From: Williamsia deligens
Lineage (GTDB): Bacteria; Actinomycetota; Actinomycetes; Mycobacteriales; Mycobacteriaceae
Assembly: GCF_024171765.1 (NCBI RefSeq)
Contig: NZ_JAMTCI010000001.1
Span: forward strand, 806,001-870,000
Direction of reading: 5' to 3'
Length of the DNA stretch: 64,000 nt
The notes under the pieces are model-generated. The model searched no databases. It saw nothing but the letters and a program-made list of their open reading frames with translations, and was not told the DNA's origin. The position numbers and the translations under genes were made by a program. Positions within the stretch are counted from its first letter, which is position 1; each line of letters begins with the position of its first letter. This document shows positions 7,343-42,479 of the stretch, piece after piece.

Positions 7343-7849
7343 GTGCAGGGGGAGACCGTGGGTGAGGTGTCGACAGAGGCGACGTTCGACGTCCTCGTCG
7401 AGTTCATCAACCGCCTGCTGTGCACCGCCGAGGTCGACGCGATCGACGGGCTGATGTCCACCGACATCTCGTTCTCCCACTTCCGCACCCTCATGGTGCT
7501 GGCCGGTCGGGCTCGGGCGCTCTCCCTGAACGAGTTGAGCGAGGTGCTCGGACTGTCGCTGGCGGCCACGGGCCGCAACGTGGACAAGCTGGTGGGTCTC
7601 GGACTGGTCGACCGTCGCGAGGACCCCGCCGACCGGCGCGTCAAGCGGGTGTCCCTCACCGACGAGGGGCAGCACAAGGTCTCCGAACACCTCGACAGCA
7701 AGGAGGACGAGTTCCGGAATTTCCTGGACCGTCTGCCCGCTGCACTCCGCAACGACCTGCACTCCGCACTGAGCTCGATAGTCACCGGGGACTATCTCGC
7801 CGATCCCGATCCGGTGTTCACCCACCGACGTCAGAAAGCGAACCGATGA
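7343..7849 (+). CDS. MarR family transcriptional regulator
   Basis: Regulator of about 168 aa with a winged helix: LSLNELSEVLGLSLAATGRNVDKLVGLGLVDRR carries the recognition helix and DRRVKRVSLTDEG the wing. It ends by ATGA overlap with the exporter gene, the usual arrangement for a repressor of a drug exporter. The start is uncertain: GTG 7343 has TACCTT 6 nt upstream (leaderless), GTG 7358 has GGGGGAG close upstream, and TTG 7319 is further out. Confidence 0.9.
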   Translation: MQGETVGEVSTEATFDVLVEFINRLLCTAEVDAIDGLMSTDISFSHFRTLMVLAGRARALSLNELSEVLGLSLAATGRNVDKLVGLGLVDRREDPADRRVKRVSLTDEGQHKVSEHLDSKEDEFRNFLDRLPAALRNDLHSALSSIVTGDYLADPDPVFTHRRQKANR

Positions 7850-9317
7850 CCACCTCCCAGGCACCGACGACCCCGGCCGCCGACGCGGCGCCGGGCCTCG
7901 ACGCCCGCACCCTGAAAGTCGCCGCAGTCGTCGTGCTCGGCGCCATCATGTCCATCCTCGACACCACCGTCGTGGCCGTCGCGCAGAACACCTTCCAGGA
8001 GGTGTTCTCGACGTCCGCGGCGAACGCGGCGTGGACCGCGACCGGCTACACGCTCGCCCTGGCCGCCGTCATCCCGCTCTCGAGCTGGGCCACAGCCCGA
8101 TTCGGCACCAAGAACGTCTACCTGCTGTCGCTGGTGCTCTTCGTCATCGGCTCCGTGCTGTGTGCCTTCGCGTGGAACATCGGTTCGCTGGTCGCCTTCC
8201 GCATGCTGCAGGGCGCGGGCGGCGGCATGCTGATGCCCGTCGGCATGATGATCCTGACCCGCGCGGCCGGCCCGGAGCGCGTCGGCTCGATCATGGCCGT
8301 CCTCGGCATCCCGATGCTGCTCGGCCCCATCGCCGGGCCCATCCTCGGCGGCGTGCTCATCGAGTTCGTCTCGTGGCACTGGATCTTCCTCATCAACGTG
8401 CCGATCGGCATCGCGGCGATCGCGTACTCGGCGTGGATCCTCGACGGTGACGAGGAGAAGTCCAAGCCCTCGTTCGACTTCGTCGGACTGCTGCTGCTCT
8501 CGCCCGGTCTCGCGGTCTTCCTCTTCGGTGTGTCGTCGTCGAACGAGGAGGGCACGTTCCTCGCGGCCAAGGTGCTGATCCCGATGGCCGTCGGCGCGAT
8601 CCTGATCGTCTCCTTCGTGGTGCACGCCCTGCGCGGGAAGAAGCCCCTGCTCGACCTGCGGCTGTTCAAGAACCGCACCCTGAGCGTCACCATCGTCACG
8701 TTCACGTTCTTCCTGATCGCGTTCTTCGGTGCGTCGCTGCTGTTCCCGCAGTACTTCATCGGGGTCCGCGGCGAGTCCACGTTGATGGCCGGTCTGCTGG
8801 TGGCCCCGCAGGGCATCGGCGCGATGATCACCATGCCCATCGCCGGCCGCATGACCGACAAGATCGGTCCCGGCAAGTTCGTGCTCACCGGCATCGTGCT
8901 GATCGCGATCGGCCTGGGCGCCTCATGTTCCTCGGCGCGGACACGTCGTACTGGCTGCTCGGCGGTGCGCTGTTCGTCCAGGGTCTCGGCATGGGCATGT
9001 CGATGATGCCGATGATGTCGGCTGCGCTCGCGACGCTGAAGGCCGAGTCCGTCGCCGACGGCTCGACGCTGGTGAACGTCGTGCAGCAGACCGCTGCGTC
9101 GATCGGCACCGCGGTCATCTCGGTGATCCTCGCGACGAACCTGAAGTCGCTGGTGCCGCCGACCCCGTCGGGTGCGGCCGGTGCGTTCGGTGACACCTTC
9201 GTCGTGGCCGTCGTGCTCATCGCCATCTGCCTCGTGCCGGCGTTCTTCCTGCCACGCAAGAAGATCGCGGTCGCGACGCCCGACGGCGAGCCCGCCGCAC
9301 CGATGATGGTGCACTGA
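7846..9317 (+). pseudogene. DHA2-type MFS drug exporter, frameshifted
   Basis: Fourteen-helix proton-driven exporter of the EmrB/QacA kind, split by a one-base frameshift. The first part, from ATG 7846, carries LDTTVVAVAQNTF in helix 1 and the motif-C-like GPIAGPILGG, and continues to GIVLIAIGLGA. At about 8921-8924 the frame changes: codons resume at ATG 8925 with FLGADTSYWLLGG and run to the true C-terminus PAAPMMVH. One missing base in gggcgcctcatg accounts for it. Both halves keep coding character, so this is either a very recent mutation or an assembly error. It is coupled to marR by ATGA. M. tuberculosis also has an emrB-like gene next to ptrB (from memory). Confidence 0.85.
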
Positions 9318-9331
9318 CACACCAGGTCTCA

Positions 9332-9376
9332 CGAACGGCCCCCGGCACACACCGTGCCGGGGGCCGTTCGCTGTTT
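9332..9376 (+). terminator. strong intrinsic terminator after the exporter
   Basis: A perfect 17-bp stem (CGAACGGCCCCCGGCAC at 9332-9348 with its complement at 9354-9370) around a 5-nt loop, followed by CTGTTT. It lies 15 bp after the exporter stop codon and should end the marR-exporter transcript. Confidence 0.85.
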
Positions 9377-9379
9377 CGA

Positions 9380-9443
9380 CCCCTGCGACCCCAAACCCCC
9401 GTAACCCTGCCCCGAAACCCCGCCCCGAAACCCACCCTCACCC
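9380..9443 (-). other. G-quadruplex-prone tract (G-rich on minus strand)
   Basis: Ten runs of three to five cytosines occur in 64 bp on the plus strand, with a CCCCGAAACCC motif twice in tandem. The minus strand therefore has many closely spaced G-runs, a good quadruplex candidate. It lies exactly between the terminator and the first 21-bp repeat. Confidence 0.55.
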
Positions 9444-9547
9444 GTCGAGTGGGCGTTTACAGACGTCGAGTGGGCGTTTACAAACGTCGAGTGGGCGGCT
9501 ACAGACGTCGACTGGGCGGCTACGGACGTCGAGTGGGCGGTGGACGA
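9443..9547 (+). repeat. 21-bp tandem repeat array A (5 units, GTCGAGTGGGCG core)
   Basis: Five head-to-tail units of exactly 21 bp start at 9443, 9464, 9485, 9506 and 9527. The core is CGTCGAGTGGGCG and the rest of the unit is close to KYTACARA. The fourth unit has GTCGAC instead of GTCGAG. The array lies 3' of the exporter gene and reads in its sense direction. Array B (10477-10560) is its inverted counterpart on the other side of the DUF559-type gene, and array C (33336-33440) is a third copy. Confidence 0.95.
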
Positions 9548-9581
9548 CCGGGTGGAACCACATCACGCCCGCCCGCGTCCC

Positions 9582-10466
9582 ATGAACATGGTCCACCTAC
9601 CGGAGGCGCACGCCGCCGCACCGAGTCATATCCGGCAGACGGACGCAGCCGCCCATCGGACGAGAAGAGAGTTCGACCGGCTGCACCGTGGCGTCTACGC
9701 GGATCCCGCAGTCACGTTGAGCGCGACCGACCGCATCCGCGCCGCTCATCTCAGCGCCGGCCCCGCCGCGGTCGTCGCGGGCCTCAGCGCCCACTTCCTC
9801 CACGGGACGCGCTATCCGGACATCAGCGGCGACGTCGAGGTCATCCGGGACCTGCGTGGTCAGGGACGGCGACGGACCGGGGTGACCATCATCCGCACCG
9901 ACCGGCTCGGCGCAGACGACATCGTCGACATCTCGGGGATGCCTGTAACCAGCGTTGTCCGCACCGCGTACGACCTGGGGAGGCGCCGACCCGACTGGCT
10001 CGCGCTGGGCCACCTCGACGACCTCGCCCGGTGTTCGGGGCTCGACCTCTCCCAGCTCTGGGCGTACACGCGCGATCACGACCGTGCACGCGGCATCTGC
10101 CAACTTCGCGAGTTGGTCGGTCTGGTCGACCCACTCTCCGAATCACCGGGAGAGAGCTGGACCCGGCTGATCATGCATCGCCACCAACTCCCCCGACCCG
10201 AGAGCCAGATCGAGGTGTTCGACGACTCGGGCGCGCTGATCGCCCGGTTCGACCTCGGCTATCGGCGGTACAAGATCGGCATCGACTACGACGGGGTCGA
10301 CTACCACTCGTCGGAAGAACAAAAGCTGCACGATCTTCGCCGCGACGGCGCAGTGAGGCAGCGAGGGTGGATCCCGCTGCGAACGAATGCGGCGGCGCTG
10401 TCGTCAGATGAGGTCGGCGAGATGGCCAGGATCGAACGCGCCCTTGAACTCCGAGGCCACCGATGA
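9582..10466 (+). CDS. AbiEi-like / DUF559 (Vsr-like nuclease fold) protein
   Basis: Protein of 294 aa of an actinobacterial family. The N-terminal third resembles an AbiEi-type winged helix (IRQTDAAAHRTRREF, LHRGVYADP). The C-terminal third has the DUF559 pattern related to very-short-patch-repair nucleases: ARFDLGYRRYKIGIDYDG followed by VDYH and DLRRDGAVRQRGW. The acidic residues fit a PD-(D/E)xK-like site, though it is divergent. ATG 9582 is preferred; GTG 9540 would start inside the repeat array, and ATG 9588 is an alternative. No partner toxin or methylase is adjacent. Its place between inverted repeat arrays marks it as accessory. The function is unknown. Confidence 0.75.
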   Translation: MNMVHLPEAHAAAPSHIRQTDAAAHRTRREFDRLHRGVYADPAVTLSATDRIRAAHLSAGPAAVVAGLSAHFLHGTRYPDISGDVEVIRDLRGQGRRRTGVTIIRTDRLGADDIVDISGMPVTSVVRTAYDLGRRRPDWLALGHLDDLARCSGLDLSQLWAYTRDHDRARGICQLRELVGLVDPLSESPGESWTRLIMHRHQLPRPESQIEVFDDSGALIARFDLGYRRYKIGIDYDGVDYHSSEEQKLHDLRRDGAVRQRGWIPLRTNAAALSSDEVGEMARIERALELRGHR

Positions 10467-10476
10467 GCGCCGGCCG

Positions 10477-10560
10477 CCGCGTGGTGCCCACTCGACGTCG
10501 CCAACCGCCCACTCGACGTCTGTAAACGCCCAGTCGACGTTGTTAACCGCCCACTCGACG
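10477..10560 (-). repeat. 21-bp tandem repeat array B (4 units, inverted relative to A)
   Basis: Four 21-bp units end at 10497, 10518, 10539 and 10560, each with core CGCCCACTCGACG on the plus strand (the first is degenerate). Read on the minus strand this is the same GTCGAGTGGGCG repeat as array A, and it begins 16 bp after the ptrB stop codon, in the sense of ptrB. One unit (10519-10539) has the GTCGAC variant. The flank ACCCTCTCACCCC before the first minus-strand unit resembles ACCCTCACCC before array A. Confidence 0.93.
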
Positions 10561-10576: not shown

Positions 10577-12682
10577 TCAGAGGGCCTTCGTCTGGCGGAG
10601 GACCCAGGCGTGCTCGAAGGCGACCTCTTCCCACTGCTGGTAGCGACCACTCACACCACCGTGGCCCGCACTCATCTCGGTCTTCAGCAGGATCGGCGCA
10701 TCCGAGGTCGTGTGTGCCTGCAGCCGTGCCACCCATTTCGCGGCCTCGGTGTACATGACCCGGGTGTCGTTGAGCGACGTCAGCGCGAGGATCGCGGGAT
10801 ACGGCTTCGCCTCGACGTTCTCGTACGGGGAGTAGCTCTTCATGTAGGCGTAGACCTCGGGATCCTCGAGCGGGTTGCCCCACTCGTCCCACTCGATGAC
10901 CGTCAGCGGCAGCGACGGGTCCAGGATGGAGGTCAGCGGGTCGACGAAGGGCACGACGGCCAGGATCCCGCTGAACAGCTCCGGGGCGATGTTCGCGACG
11001 GCACCGATGAGCAGTCCGCCCGCCGAGCCTCCCTCACCCACCAGTTGCGACGGCGTCGTCGCCCCCGTGTCGACGAGATGCTGTGCGGCGTCGACGAAGT
11101 CGAAGAAGGTGTTCTGCTTCGTCAGCGTCTTGCCGTCGTCGTACCAGTGCCGCCCCATCTCGCCGCCACCGCGGATGTGGGCGACGACGAACACGACGCC
11201 ACGGTCCAGCAGCGACAGCCTCGCGATGGAGAACGACGGATCCATGCTGGCCTCGTACGAGCCGTATCCGTAGAGCAGCGTCGGCGCCGGCCGCTGCACG
11301 CCGCGGCGTGCGATCACCGACAGCGGTACCCGGGTCCCGTCGCGCGCGGTGACCCACTCGCGTCGTTGCTCGTAGTCGGCCGGGTCGTACCCACCGAGAA
11401 CGGGCTGACGCCGCAACAGGATCCGTTCACCGGTCGTCAGATCGAGGTCGAGGACCTCCGACGGTTCGATGAAGCTGGTGTAGCCGATCCGCAGTCGGGG
11501 TGCGGCCCATTCCGGGTTCGACGCCAGGCCGGTGGAGGCGAGCTCCTGCTCGAACTCGACCTCGGCGAACGCGATCTCGTCGTCCGCACCGACACCGCGC
11601 AGATCAGCGACGGCGATACGCGGTGTCGCGCCCCGGCGGTAGCTCAGAACCAGGCGCTCGGCGAACGCGTCGACACCCTCGATCCGGCGTTCGGTGTCAT
11701 GGGCGACGACCACCCGTGTCGACGTCGGGTCGTCGACGGGCGCGGAGACGATCTCGAAGTTCTCCGCGTTCTCGTTGTGCGTGATGAGGAACCGGTCCTC
11801 GCCGCCGATCACCGCGTGTTCCACGTCGTACTCGACGCCGTCGCGACGCGGCCACACGACCGTGAACTCCCCCGTGGGGTCCGACGAGTCGAGGACATAC
11901 GCCTCGGAGGTGATCTTGGAACCGAGGACGATCATCAGGTAGCGGTCGCTGCGCGTCGTGCCCATCCCGACCCAGTAGCGCTCGTCCGGCTCGTGGAAGA
12001 CTCGGACGTCGTCGGAGCCGGCACCGATGTCGTGCCGCCACACCGTGTCCGGACGCCAGGCGTCGTCGACGGTGAGATAGAAGACGTGGCGACCGTCCGC
12101 CGACCACGTCGCCCCCGGCGCCGTGTTCTCGACGGTGTCGGGCAGGAGTTCCCCGGTCGCGAGGTCCTTGATCCGCAGCGTGTACCGCTCGTCACCGACG
12201 GTGTCGACGGCGTAGGCAAGCAGACCGCCGTCGTCGCTGACGGAGAACGCGCCGAGGGAGAAGAACTCGGTCCCCTCCGCCTCGAGATTCGAGTCGAGCA
12301 GGACCATCTCGCCGTCGAGGGGATCGTCGCCGACGGTGGGCGGGTTCCAGTCGTCGTCGGCGCGGATCGGACACCGGCAGCTGACGCCGTACTGCTTGCC
12401 CTCGGCGGTCCGCGAGTAGTACCAGAAGCGACCACGCCGGACCGGGACCGACATGTCGGTCTCCTTGGTCCGGGACTTGATCTCCCCAACGATGGCCGCC
12501 CGCAGGTCGGCCAGCTCGGCGGTGTCGGCCTCGGTCAGCGCGTTCTGCGCCTCGAGGTACGCGATGACCTCCGGATCGTCCTTGACGCGGAGCCACTCGT
12601 ACTCGTCGACGACGACGTCGCCGTGATGCTCCCGCGTGGTGGGCACCTTCTTGGCCGTCGGCACCTCCGGGCGGGCGGTCAC
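10577..12682 (-). CDS. ptrB: S9A oligopeptidase B (prolyl-oligopeptidase family)
   Basis: Cytosolic serine peptidase cutting short peptides, commonly after basic residues; 701 aa. A seven-bladed propeller (about residues 70-410) is followed by an alpha/beta-hydrolase domain: [14 protein letters not shown], the nucleophile in [13 protein letters not shown], the Asp near [10 protein letters not shown], and the His in [14 protein letters not shown]. The start GTG 12682 overlaps the purC stop as GTGA, so they form one unit; M. tuberculosis also places ptrB next to purC. The 21-bp repeat array B follows the stop codon by 16 bp. Confidence 0.95.
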
Positions 12683-33335: not shown

Positions 33336-33440
33336 GTGTCAACCGCCCACTCGACGTCTCCAACCGCCCACTCGACGTCTTCAAACGCCCACTCGACGTC
33401 TTCAAACGCCCAGTCGACGTCTTCAACCGCCCACTCGACG
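33336..33440 (-). repeat. 21-bp tandem repeat array C (5 units)
   Basis: Five 21-bp units end at 33356, 33377, 33398, 33419 and 33440, core CGCCCACTCGACG on the plus strand, with one GTCGAC-type unit (33399-33419). On the minus strand it starts 39 bp after the phoR stop codon and reads GTCGAGTGGGCG in the sense of phoR. It is the same family as arrays A and B, 23 kb away, but with no DUF559-type gene beside it. Confidence 0.95.
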
Positions 33441-40865: not shown

Positions 40866-42410
40866 GTGACCACGGCCGGCACATCCACCCCTGATCCGAC
40901 GGCTCCGAGCGACCACACCTCGGCCGAGATGGACATCCCCGCCGAGGTGGCGCAGACGGCTGATTTCGTCGTCGTCGCCAACCGGCTTCCCGTCGACAAG
41001 GAGACCCTCCCGGACGGGACGGTGCGCTGGAAGCGCAGCCCGGGCGGCCTCGTCACCGCGCTCGAGCCGATCCTGCGGTCGCAGACCGGGGCCTGGGTGG
41101 GCTGGTCCGGAGTCCCCGATTCGGCCGACAATCCCGTCGTCGACGGCTTGCAGCTGGTCTCGGTGCCGCTCTCCGCGCAGGAGATCAACGAGTACTACGA
41201 GGGCTTCTCCAACGCGACCCTGTGGCCGCTGTACCACGACGTGCTGGTGAAACCGGAGTACCACCGCGAATGGTGGAACTCCTATGTCGAGGTCAACCGG
41301 CGCTTCGCCGAGGCCGCGTCGACCGTCGCCTCCGAGGGCGCGATGGTGTGGGTGCAGGACTACCAGCTGCAGCTGGTGCCGAAGATGCTCCGGATGCTGC
41401 GCCCGGACCTGAAGATCGGCTTCTTCCTGCACATCCCGTTCCCCCCGGTCGAGCTGTTCATGCAGCTGCCGTGGCGCACGGAGATCGTGGAGGGCCTCCT
41501 CGGGGCCGACCTCATCGGCTTCCACCTCCCCGGCGGCGCCCAGAACTTCCTCTACCTCGCGCGACGCCTCGCCGGGCAGGCGACGTCGAAGGGATCCGTC
41601 GGCGTCCGCGCCAAGTTCGGCGTCGTGCAGGTCGGTTTCCGACACGTCCGTGTGGGCGCGTTCCCCATCTCGATCGACTCCGGTGCGCTCGACGCGACAT
41701 CGAGGTCGAAGAAGATCCGCGACCGCGCCGCCGAGCTGCGCCGTGATCTGGGCAACCCGAAGACGATCATGTTGGGCGTCGACCGCCTCGACTACACCAA
41801 GGGCATCGACGTGCGCCTGATCGCGCTGTCGGAGCTGTTGGCCGAGGGACGCGTCGACCCCCGCGACACCGTGATGATCCAGCTGGCCACCCCGAGCCGC
41901 GAGCGCGTCGACAGCTACATCAAGATGCGCGCCGGGATCGAGCAGCTCGTCGGCAACATCAACGGCACCCACGGCGAGGTCGCCCACCAGGTCGTGCAGT
42001 ACCTGCACCGGCCGGTCGAACGCGACGAACTGATCGCGTTCTTCGTCGCCGCCGACGTGATGTTGGTGACGCCGTTGCGCGACGGCATGAACCTGGTCGC
42101 CAAGGAGTACGTGGCGTGCCGCAGCGACCTCGGCGGCGCCCTGGTCCTCAGCGAGTTCACCGGCGCCGCGGCGGAGCTGCGCTCGGCGTATCAGGCGAAC
42201 CCGTACGACCTCGACGGGGTGAAGGACGCCATCGTGAGCGCGGTGGCGCAGACCCCCGACGAGGGTCGTCGCCGGATGCGCGCTCTGCGCCGACAGGTCC
42301 TCGCCCACGACGTCAGCCGCTGGGCGGAGAGTTTCCTCGGCGCCCTGGCCGCGGCCAACGACGTCGCGACGGGCGAGAACCGCAGCGTCGACCTCGTCGA
42401 AGACGACTAG
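40866..42410 (+). CDS. otsA: trehalose-6-phosphate synthase OtsA
   Basis: GT20 glucosyltransferase of 514 aa that joins a nucleotide-activated glucose (UDP or ADP) to glucose-6-phosphate. Seen: [85 protein letters not shown], and [18 protein letters not shown] with [10 protein letters not shown]. The GTG start directly follows the small-protein gene. The last codons and the TAG stop lie inside the first unit of a 23-bp tandem repeat, which supplies the ending DLVEDD. Confidence 0.97.
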
Positions 42411-42479
42411 TCGCGCGAGTCGAAGACGACTGGTCGCGCGAGTCGACGACGACTGGTCAGGCGAGTCGACGGCGACTGT
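42396..42479 (+). repeat. 23-bp tandem repeat overlapping the otsA stop
   Basis: Units of 23 bp start at 42396, 42419 and 42442, with a partial fourth at 42465. Each starts GTCGAAGACGACT or GTCGACGACGACT and continues RGTCRSGCGA. The otsA stop codon is within the first unit. It lies before the otsB promoter (TAGACT at 42526). It is unlike the 21-bp family except for the same position just 3' of a gene. Confidence 0.9.

Follow-up and report, generated by a model that had tools for sequence, protein, structure and literature searches.

In Williamsia and Gordonia, which live in soil and water, a clade of AbiEi/DUF559-type nuclease-like genes is framed by inverted arrays of a short tandem repeat, and subclades of the gene carry repeat cores of their own. 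We favor the reading, to which we assign a probability of roughly 60%, that each of these nucleases has its own 21-bp (rarely 22-bp) repeat, which it would bind, cut and spread. From the comparison of sequences, we infer binding and cleavage of the arrays by the nuclease as well as copying of the arrays by repair. Genomes are coded G000 (the genome containing the window), G001 (W. herbipolensis), G002 (W. maris) and G004 (W. serinedens); G003 and G005 to G007 are also Williamsia. Individual loci carry L numbers.

Inverted 21-bp arrays frame a nuclease-like gene

The window, that is, the whole stretch of 64,000 nucleotides that was analyzed (contig 1, 806001-870000), contains the following features.

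7846..9317, plus strand: MFS-type exporter in two reading frames with a break near 8,920, named by reading its translation
9332..9370, plus strand: perfect 17-bp inverted repeat (loop of 5 nt), located past the exporter stop and ahead of array A
9443..9539, plus strand: array A, five units of 21 bp, core GTCGAGTGGGCG
9582..10466, plus strand: AbiEi/DUF559-type gene (294 aa; ATG at 9582, stop at 10466), a member of the array-framed clade
10485..10560, minus strand: array B, four 21-bp units in the opposite orientation to array A
10577..12682, minus strand: ptrB (prolyl oligopeptidase, S9), its end 16 bp from array B
33344..33440, minus strand: third, dispersed array with the same core, five units, without the gene

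The cores of array A lie at 9443, 9464, 9485, 9506 and 9527 (plus strand), with a single deviating unit, GTCGACTGGGCG, and those of array B lie at 10485, 10506, 10527 and 10548 (minus strand). A preliminary description of this DNA had reported inverted arrays of five and four 21-bp units around one gene; both arrays are present, and recomputing their coordinates returned a unit period of exactly 21 for the two. It had also named ptrB, which a Peptidase_S9 profile match confirmed, and had remarked on matching outer flanks. ACCC/ACCCC ends do occur on both sides, yet the same edge is widespread among the listed arrays of the genus and is not specific to the gene. Allowing at most one mismatch, we counted 15 core matches in the window, 14 of which fell in the three arrays, whereas 100 dinucleotide shuffles of the window gave a mean of 1.16 matches and a largest count of 4. 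An array finder detected three arrays in the window versus none in 20 mononucleotide shuffles. The array at 33344-33440 is flanked by a HIT-type and a histidine-kinase-type gene, both named by reading translations. A 23-bp tandem repeat of 3.6 copies also occurs in the window (42396-42478), and its consensus is unrelated to the 21-bp arrays.

Two features next to the arrays were recorded in passing. The exporter occupies frames 7846-9006 and 8925-9317 (window 8900-8930), and because it lies in two frames it looks broken by a frameshift, unless this is an assembly error; the inverted repeat behind it resembles a terminator of the exporter itself. Loci L061, L062, L070, L072 and L053 share a similar stretch, GAACCG ... 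GCGTC[CG]AAC, in the interval from the array to the start codon of the gene, possibly a promoter or operator.

The gene product joins an AbiEi-like part to a nuclease-like part

The AbiEi-like start and middle and the nuclease-like end that had been ascribed to the gene were borne out by profile matches to AbiEi, MTES_1575 and DUF559. In the window protein, the PADLOC AbiEi profile matched the front and middle (E=6.8e-13), while the Pfam profile MTES_1575 (PF18741) matched the C-terminal part at 1.6e-6, which is below the curated cut-off. DUF559 (PF04480) scored above its cut-off in the homologs L098, L094, L063 and L068; the window copy matches PF18741 only. Profile searches of the window protein found no transposase domain. 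Its predicted structure had a mean pLDDT of 87.5, and the nearest solved sequences were 3hrl (endonuclease-like, E=0.005) and 3r3p (a mobile intron protein, E=0.034), the latter of which we take to be I-Bth0305I.

Residue conservation was analyzed in an alignment that held 50 of 79 sequences (the window and 78 loci), L077 and L089 being among those that dropped out. E191, D224, D237 and H242, which are putative catalytic-type residues, were present in 24 of 24 framed rows. The 26 unframed rows kept E191 and D224, and 21 of them kept D237, whereas H242 was replaced by R, W or Q in 25. With H242 conserved only in the framed clade, the full nuclease-type set of residues is kept where the arrays are kept. 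Since the histidine is replaced in 25 of the 26 that were aligned, the mycobacterial, nocardial and other proteins of L099-L102 and L104-L152 may be inactive as nucleases. The window gene is 77% identical to its G007 counterpart, compared with 90% for ptrB, and 60% identical to that of W. herbipolensis, compared with 81% for ptrB; judged by these identities, it evolves faster than its neighbor.

In domain make-up, the protein resembles AbiEi antitoxins and the lone DUF559 proteins of actinobacteria. An AbiE-type defense or toxin-antitoxin module with the arrays as its operators would fit the AbiEi-like part, and the upstream arrays could act as an operator. We nevertheless consider such a module very improbable, given that the neighbors are of housekeeping type and that arrays lie on both sides of the gene and at about 20 other loci; unlike with AbiEi antitoxins, no AbiEii-like partner was noticed on reading the gene tables of the loci.

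Framing is shared by close homologs

We inspected the flanks of the best 80 of 110 named homologs, which consisted of 27 Williamsia/Gordonia loci (one of them filed as Kitasatospora) and 53 more distant ones. By reading, 26 of the 27 Williamsia/Gordonia loci among these best 80 of 110 were framed on both sides, some by just two or three worn units, and the other, L077, was masked on one side. In a blind test with the period fixed at 21, the same 27 loci showed arrays on both sides in 19 cases and on one side in 6, and the remaining 2 had a period of 22 on both sides, while control windows in the same loci gave 3/302 and 0/568. No period-21 array was found in any of the 53 more distant homologs within the best 80 of 110; one of them, L142, contains a block of period 20. 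At L081/L066 and at L090/L072/L070, the repeat has a period of 22 bp. Across the eight Williamsia genomes there were 19 close homologs, 18 framed on both sides and one masked on one side, and framing was seen in none of the 17 distant paralogs inspected (of 46 listed). The preliminary description was right to treat the framing as meaningful, and occurrence of the gene without arrays, which would have spoken against a gene-array unit, is widespread in more distant homologs only.

A protein tree of 39 rows (midpoint root), into which 9 of the 53 unframed homologs were taken, separated 30 framed from 9 unframed proteins by a 100/100 branch. The cores that frame the 27 loci are specific to lineages and include GTCGAGTGGGCG, GTTCGTTGGGC, GCCAGTTGGGCAC, CCGTGTTGGGCC, CGCCGACCGTGCCC, CCGCCCACCGTGCGG, GCCGACAGCACCCGG, GTCGAGCGTGCGC, GTCGACAGCGCTC and others. 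Similar cores also turn up in distant branches: G. jacobaea, whose protein is 38% identical, has nearly the core of the window. In the same tree, L088, from a record named Kitasatospora arboriphila NRRL B-24581, groups with Williamsia muralis, and its label is probably due to contamination or mislabeling.

Ordinary genes can be framed as well. An FAD oxidoreductase-like gene lies between arrays in G000 (L044), as does its ortholog in W. serinedens (L225), and six more facing pairs (L163, L165, L177, L238, L243 and L244) have gaps the size of a gene. The prediction that gene-sized gaps between arms in Gordonia-like genomes would contain a DUF559 gene failed: L323 and L324, where the arms are 0.9 kb apart in G201 and form a 1.4-kb pair in G227, hold other genes, and 0 of 6 loci matched. 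The framed ordinary genes and the failed prediction both count against the reading that we prefer.

Dispersed arrays accompany the gene framed by the same core

In the window genome (4.41 Mb), the tandem core pair was found 75 times at up to one mismatch, 59 of these exact, compared with 0 for the reversed control; grouping placed the pairs at about 22 loci. Seven of the 8 Williamsia genomes contained exact core pairs. Of 251 genomes sampled across the family, 14 contained them, and these 14 represented 2 of 31 genera, the second of which is probably Gordonia.

Co-occurrence was then measured as tandem-pair matches per genome, gene-framing arrays included. Pairs of CAGTTGGGCAC numbered 37, 49, 41 and 15 in G001, G002, G003 and G005, each of which has a gene framed by this core; the other four genomes had none. 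Pairs of TTCGTTGGGC numbered 33 in G004, 31 in G007 and 5 in G000, where gene L052 is framed by a variant of this core, and 0 in the remaining five. SACCGTGC at period 21 was counted 10, 10 and 23 times in G000, G004 and G007 and 0 to 1 times in the five others. The reversed-pattern control gave 0 throughout. Pairs of core A (GTCGASTGGGCG) numbered 59, 46 and 47 in G000, G006 and G007 and 0 in G001, but this core was the exception, as W. serinedens (33), G005 (13), G003 (11) and W. maris (2) also contain it without a close homolog so framed. Our reading of these arrays without a cognate gene is that they may be relics of a gene since lost. Dispersed arrays of a given core are found almost only where the gene is framed by that core, core A excepted; in other words, repeat number follows the cognate gene cleanly for three of the four cores.

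These results bear on whether arrays and gene might merely share a preference for the gaps between convergent genes and be otherwise unrelated. Both do sit in such gaps, and ordinary genes are sometimes framed. Coincidence would, however, have to explain framing throughout the clade, the lack of a period-21 array in all 53 homologs outside it (best 80 of 110), and lineage cores that match the dispersed arrays, and we find it hardly credible. The comparisons of sequence indicate that the link between gene and repeat is well supported.

Arrays outlast the gene at an old site

The gene adjoins ptrB in 7 of the 8 Williamsia genomes, and in 6 of these 7, G006 being the exception, the exporter lies opposite. 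For the ptrB-side copies, the framing repeat is of the core A, core B or 22-bp type. The W. sterculiae gene (L083) was located, by reading, between the apparent ends of the exporter and ptrB. Judging from this distribution, the exporter-ptrB site of the gene is old. In G006, a frame next to the ptrB-side copy, where the exporter is missing (L066, 3423-3713), reads like part of an insertion-sequence transposase, and the site may have been rearranged in that genome.

The preliminary description had proposed, as one of two options, that the gene and both arrays form a cassette between the exporter and ptrB, a view to which arrays at this site without the gene would be contrary. Such arrays exist: at the exporter-ptrB site of W. 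serinedens (L254) the gene is absent, and two facing arms of two units each are present. One unit is GTTCGTTGGGC, the core of a nuclease elsewhere in W. serinedens, and the other three are G[CT]CTGTTGGGC, the variant found around L052 in G000. The persistence of facing arrays in a genome that lacks the gene at this site, together with the age of the site, led us to reject a single mobile cassette. More generally, a classical transposon-like element, in which gene and arms move as one unit, would account for the inverted ends, for the gene inside them and for the presence of the gene at about six different sites in eight genomes. It is at odds with the fact that the gene neighbors ptrB in 7 of 8 genomes and likewise in W. 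sterculiae, with the persistence of arms that have no gene, with the lack of a visible target duplication (at one gene-less element) and with the absence of a transposase domain from the profile matches, which together make it a highly improbable explanation.

Sites can also be shared between species while the core changes. At the site of the FAD oxidoreductase-like gene, G000 has core A (L044) and W. serinedens has core C (L225), with flanks that are 81-90% identical. The site of a gene-less element, L162, has the same two neighbors in five genomes; W. maris and W. herbipolensis carry the whole element, G005 has a half-unit scar, G003 has nothing, and in G000 the two stop codons are 3 bp apart with no element between them. 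W. serinedens and G007 were discarded as empty sites for L162, since their right-hand neighbor is another gene, and no ortholog of the site was obtained from G006. Between W. maris and G003, the difference amounts to a gain or loss of about 155 bp. No target-site duplication was visible at this one clean presence/absence site of a gene-less element, where the change is possibly a loss. A second site differs as well, with about 85 bp of array in W. maris and 16 bp in G003, and one array has five units in G003 versus three in W. maris, the extra units being on the outer side. L161, L172, L183 and L185 could not be paired with an orthologous site.

Facing arms are helically phased and lie behind genes

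To describe the arrays themselves, we surveyed a selection of the listed places, namely 217 arrays in 130 fetched loci (20 each from G000, G002, G003, G004 and G007, 14 from G001 and 6 from G006, the remaining 10 being the window and nine gene loci, one from G005). Five arrays were left out of the orientation counts, as a gene call was missing on one side. Convergent genes surrounded 139 of the other 212, against a background of 10 of 63 gene pairs in the window, and 188 of the 212 had the same sense as the gene that flanks their outer edge, at a median of 13.5 bp past its stop.

The gaps between facing arms were mostly close to 7, 17, 27, 37-39 or 47-49 bp. Pairs with a gap outside -15 to 130, which include gene-bearing arms, were dropped, and the phase test further dropped 5 of 58 pairs outside 0-60 bp. 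The 53 facing pairs with gaps of 0-60 bp reached R=0.92 at a period of 10.25 bp, which phased them best among the 13 periods tried, compared with a maximum R of 0.39 in 5000 uniform random draws at 10.25 bp; the phasing counts, like the polarity counts, include orthologous arrays of sister species, so that the observations are not independent. Spacing in steps of about 10.25 bp probably reflects a protein that binds the arrays on DNA. At the RNA level, 10 of 12 single arrays folded more stably than their mononucleotide shuffles, 5 of them by more than 2.5 SD, and 2 folded worse; a role in RNA may therefore exist as well.

These properties raise the possibility that the arrays are part of the host's own equipment at gene 3′ ends, such as insulators, aids to termination or platforms for a nucleoid protein, and that the DUF559 protein is a binder kept by the host which does not spread them. 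The convergent setting and sense orientation of the arrays, their distance from stop codons, the sharing of sites between species while cores change (exporter-ptrB; L044/L225), the helical phasing and the folding of 10 of 12 arrays are all in keeping with this explanation. What it does not readily accommodate is that one orthologous site has a whole element in some genomes and none in others, that the nuclease-motif histidine is conserved in the framed clade only, and that the exporter and an rpoC-like gene (L053) were read with hairpins of their own before the array. On balance, we judge it unlikely, though it is the main rival of the reading that we prefer. The idea, already put forward as an option in the preliminary description, that the arrays are separate 3′ elements of the neighboring genes stands as far as their location at those 3′ ends is concerned but not as regards core sequence, which follows the lineage of the gene. 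Simple RNA terminators of the neighbors were rejected as the main explanation, as the exporter and the rpoC-like gene read as having their own hairpins first and the arm spacing follows the DNA helix; the folding of 10 of 12 arrays leaves such terminators some probability.

Units appear to turn over from the outer edge

When the outermost and innermost units were compared for nearness to the core, in the 193 arrays that had at least three units, the outermost was closer in 71, further in 33 and equal in 89. Of 11 transitions between the resident core (B) and the old one (A) in G001-G003, 9 had core B outside and core A inside and 2 the reverse; units with more than one mismatch were excluded from these counts as well as from those of the spacers. 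Homogenization of the spacers was modest, with spacers more alike within than between genomes in most, but not all, comparisons, with exceptions such as G003-G004 (0.72 versus 0.69 within G004) and G002-G003 (0.67 versus 0.66 within G002). Mixed arrays with two cores in a single 21-bp register were seen at L175, L176, L163 and L166, usually with resident-core units toward the outer edge and units of the older core farther in. Some arrays lie inside long open frames (L324, 1233-1432, in G227; L043, 3079-3152, in G000); 21 bp being seven codons, translation could run through an array in frame and give a repeated peptide.

A proposed mechanism and its known parallel

In the mechanism that we propose, the protein would recognize its own repeat, a step that the sequences strongly suggest, and the arrays would be its platform. 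Since the two inverted arms share one face of the DNA helix, proteins on both arms probably meet across the center. The nuclease would most likely nick or cut at or near the units, and repair would then copy units from array to array, with the result that arrays spread to the 3′ ends of genes. Units would be added or replaced starting at the outer edge, and old arrays would take on the resident nuclease's core. Arms with the gene between them would represent the complete element, and facing arms with a 7-49 bp center its gene-less form.

This organization has a parallel in the RAYT/REP (REPIN) systems of proteobacteria. Published work describes a gene with an inverted copy of its repeat on either side, gene and repeat that coevolve, a number of dispersed repeats that follows the presence of the gene, faster evolution of the gene than of its neighbors, mostly extragenic repeats and inverted pairs without the gene (PMC2817692). 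Inverted flanking repeats, coevolution, dispersed copies that follow the gene, its fast evolution, a mostly extragenic position of the repeats and gene-less pairs are likewise seen here; the flanks differ in being whole inverted arrays (26 of 27 loci by reading, among the best 80 of 110) instead of single repeats. Other differences are more fundamental. Instead of a Y1 (HUH) transposase, the enzyme is an AbiEi/DUF559-like protein, and a search for the Y1 transposase PF01797 was positive in 0/8 Williamsia genomes (control rings, 5/14), which also led us to discard mobilization by a Y1 transposase encoded elsewhere in the eight genomes. The repeats described here are 21-bp direct tandem repeats in helically phased arms without a GTAG head (e.g., GTCGAGTGGGCG, GTTCGTTGGGC and GCCAGTTGGGCAC). 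The RAYT/REP repeat is an imperfect palindrome that forms a stem-loop; of the arrays folded here, 10/12 did better than mononucleotide shuffles and 2/12 worse. Lacking a Y1 transposase and a GTAG head, and built of direct tandem repeats, the system seems to work like RAYT/REP without being a member of it. Whether it is a second, independent invention of such a partnership, in which a nuclease would copy phased arrays and convert older ones while the recognition code changes along with them, seems to us an evenly balanced question.

Two further groups invite comparison. CGTC-tagged REPs are described as mostly alpha-proteobacterial palindromes with stems of 8-9 bp that are said to lack a dedicated transposase (PMC3733652). 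Many of our units also begin with CGTC, and they too are extragenic, often between convergent genes, and form opposite pairs; unlike the palindromic CGTC-tagged REPs, they are direct tandem repeats. The words Actinobacteria, Williamsia and Gordonia are absent from the main text of PMC3733652 that was searched. Vsr-like homing endonucleases such as 3r3p are similar in the weak match of the nuclease part (E=0.034) and in the lodging of the gene between possible recognition sequences, but here there is no intron or intein host gene, and the suspected target is a tandem array at many loci. More distant DUF559 relatives differ from the framed clade in having no period-21 arrays (best 80 of 110) and in lacking the histidine in 25 of the 26 aligned.

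Judged from sequence, what is new is the molecules, namely an unrelated protein and repeat, and what is known is the parallel organization in RAYT/REP. Among the titles and abstract openings listed from an open-access library, there was no account of this enzyme-repeat system. To our knowledge, the lone AbiEi/DUF559 genes that recur in actinobacteria have no known role. A whole clade of them now has a visible candidate target, namely the neighboring array, which varies in sequence along with the gene. The clade thereby offers a natural set of nuclease-site pairs, with about ten cores, from which a recognition code could be read. As an enzyme-repeat system outside the HUH world, it would provide a handle on how bacterial interspersed repeats arise, persist and get replaced.
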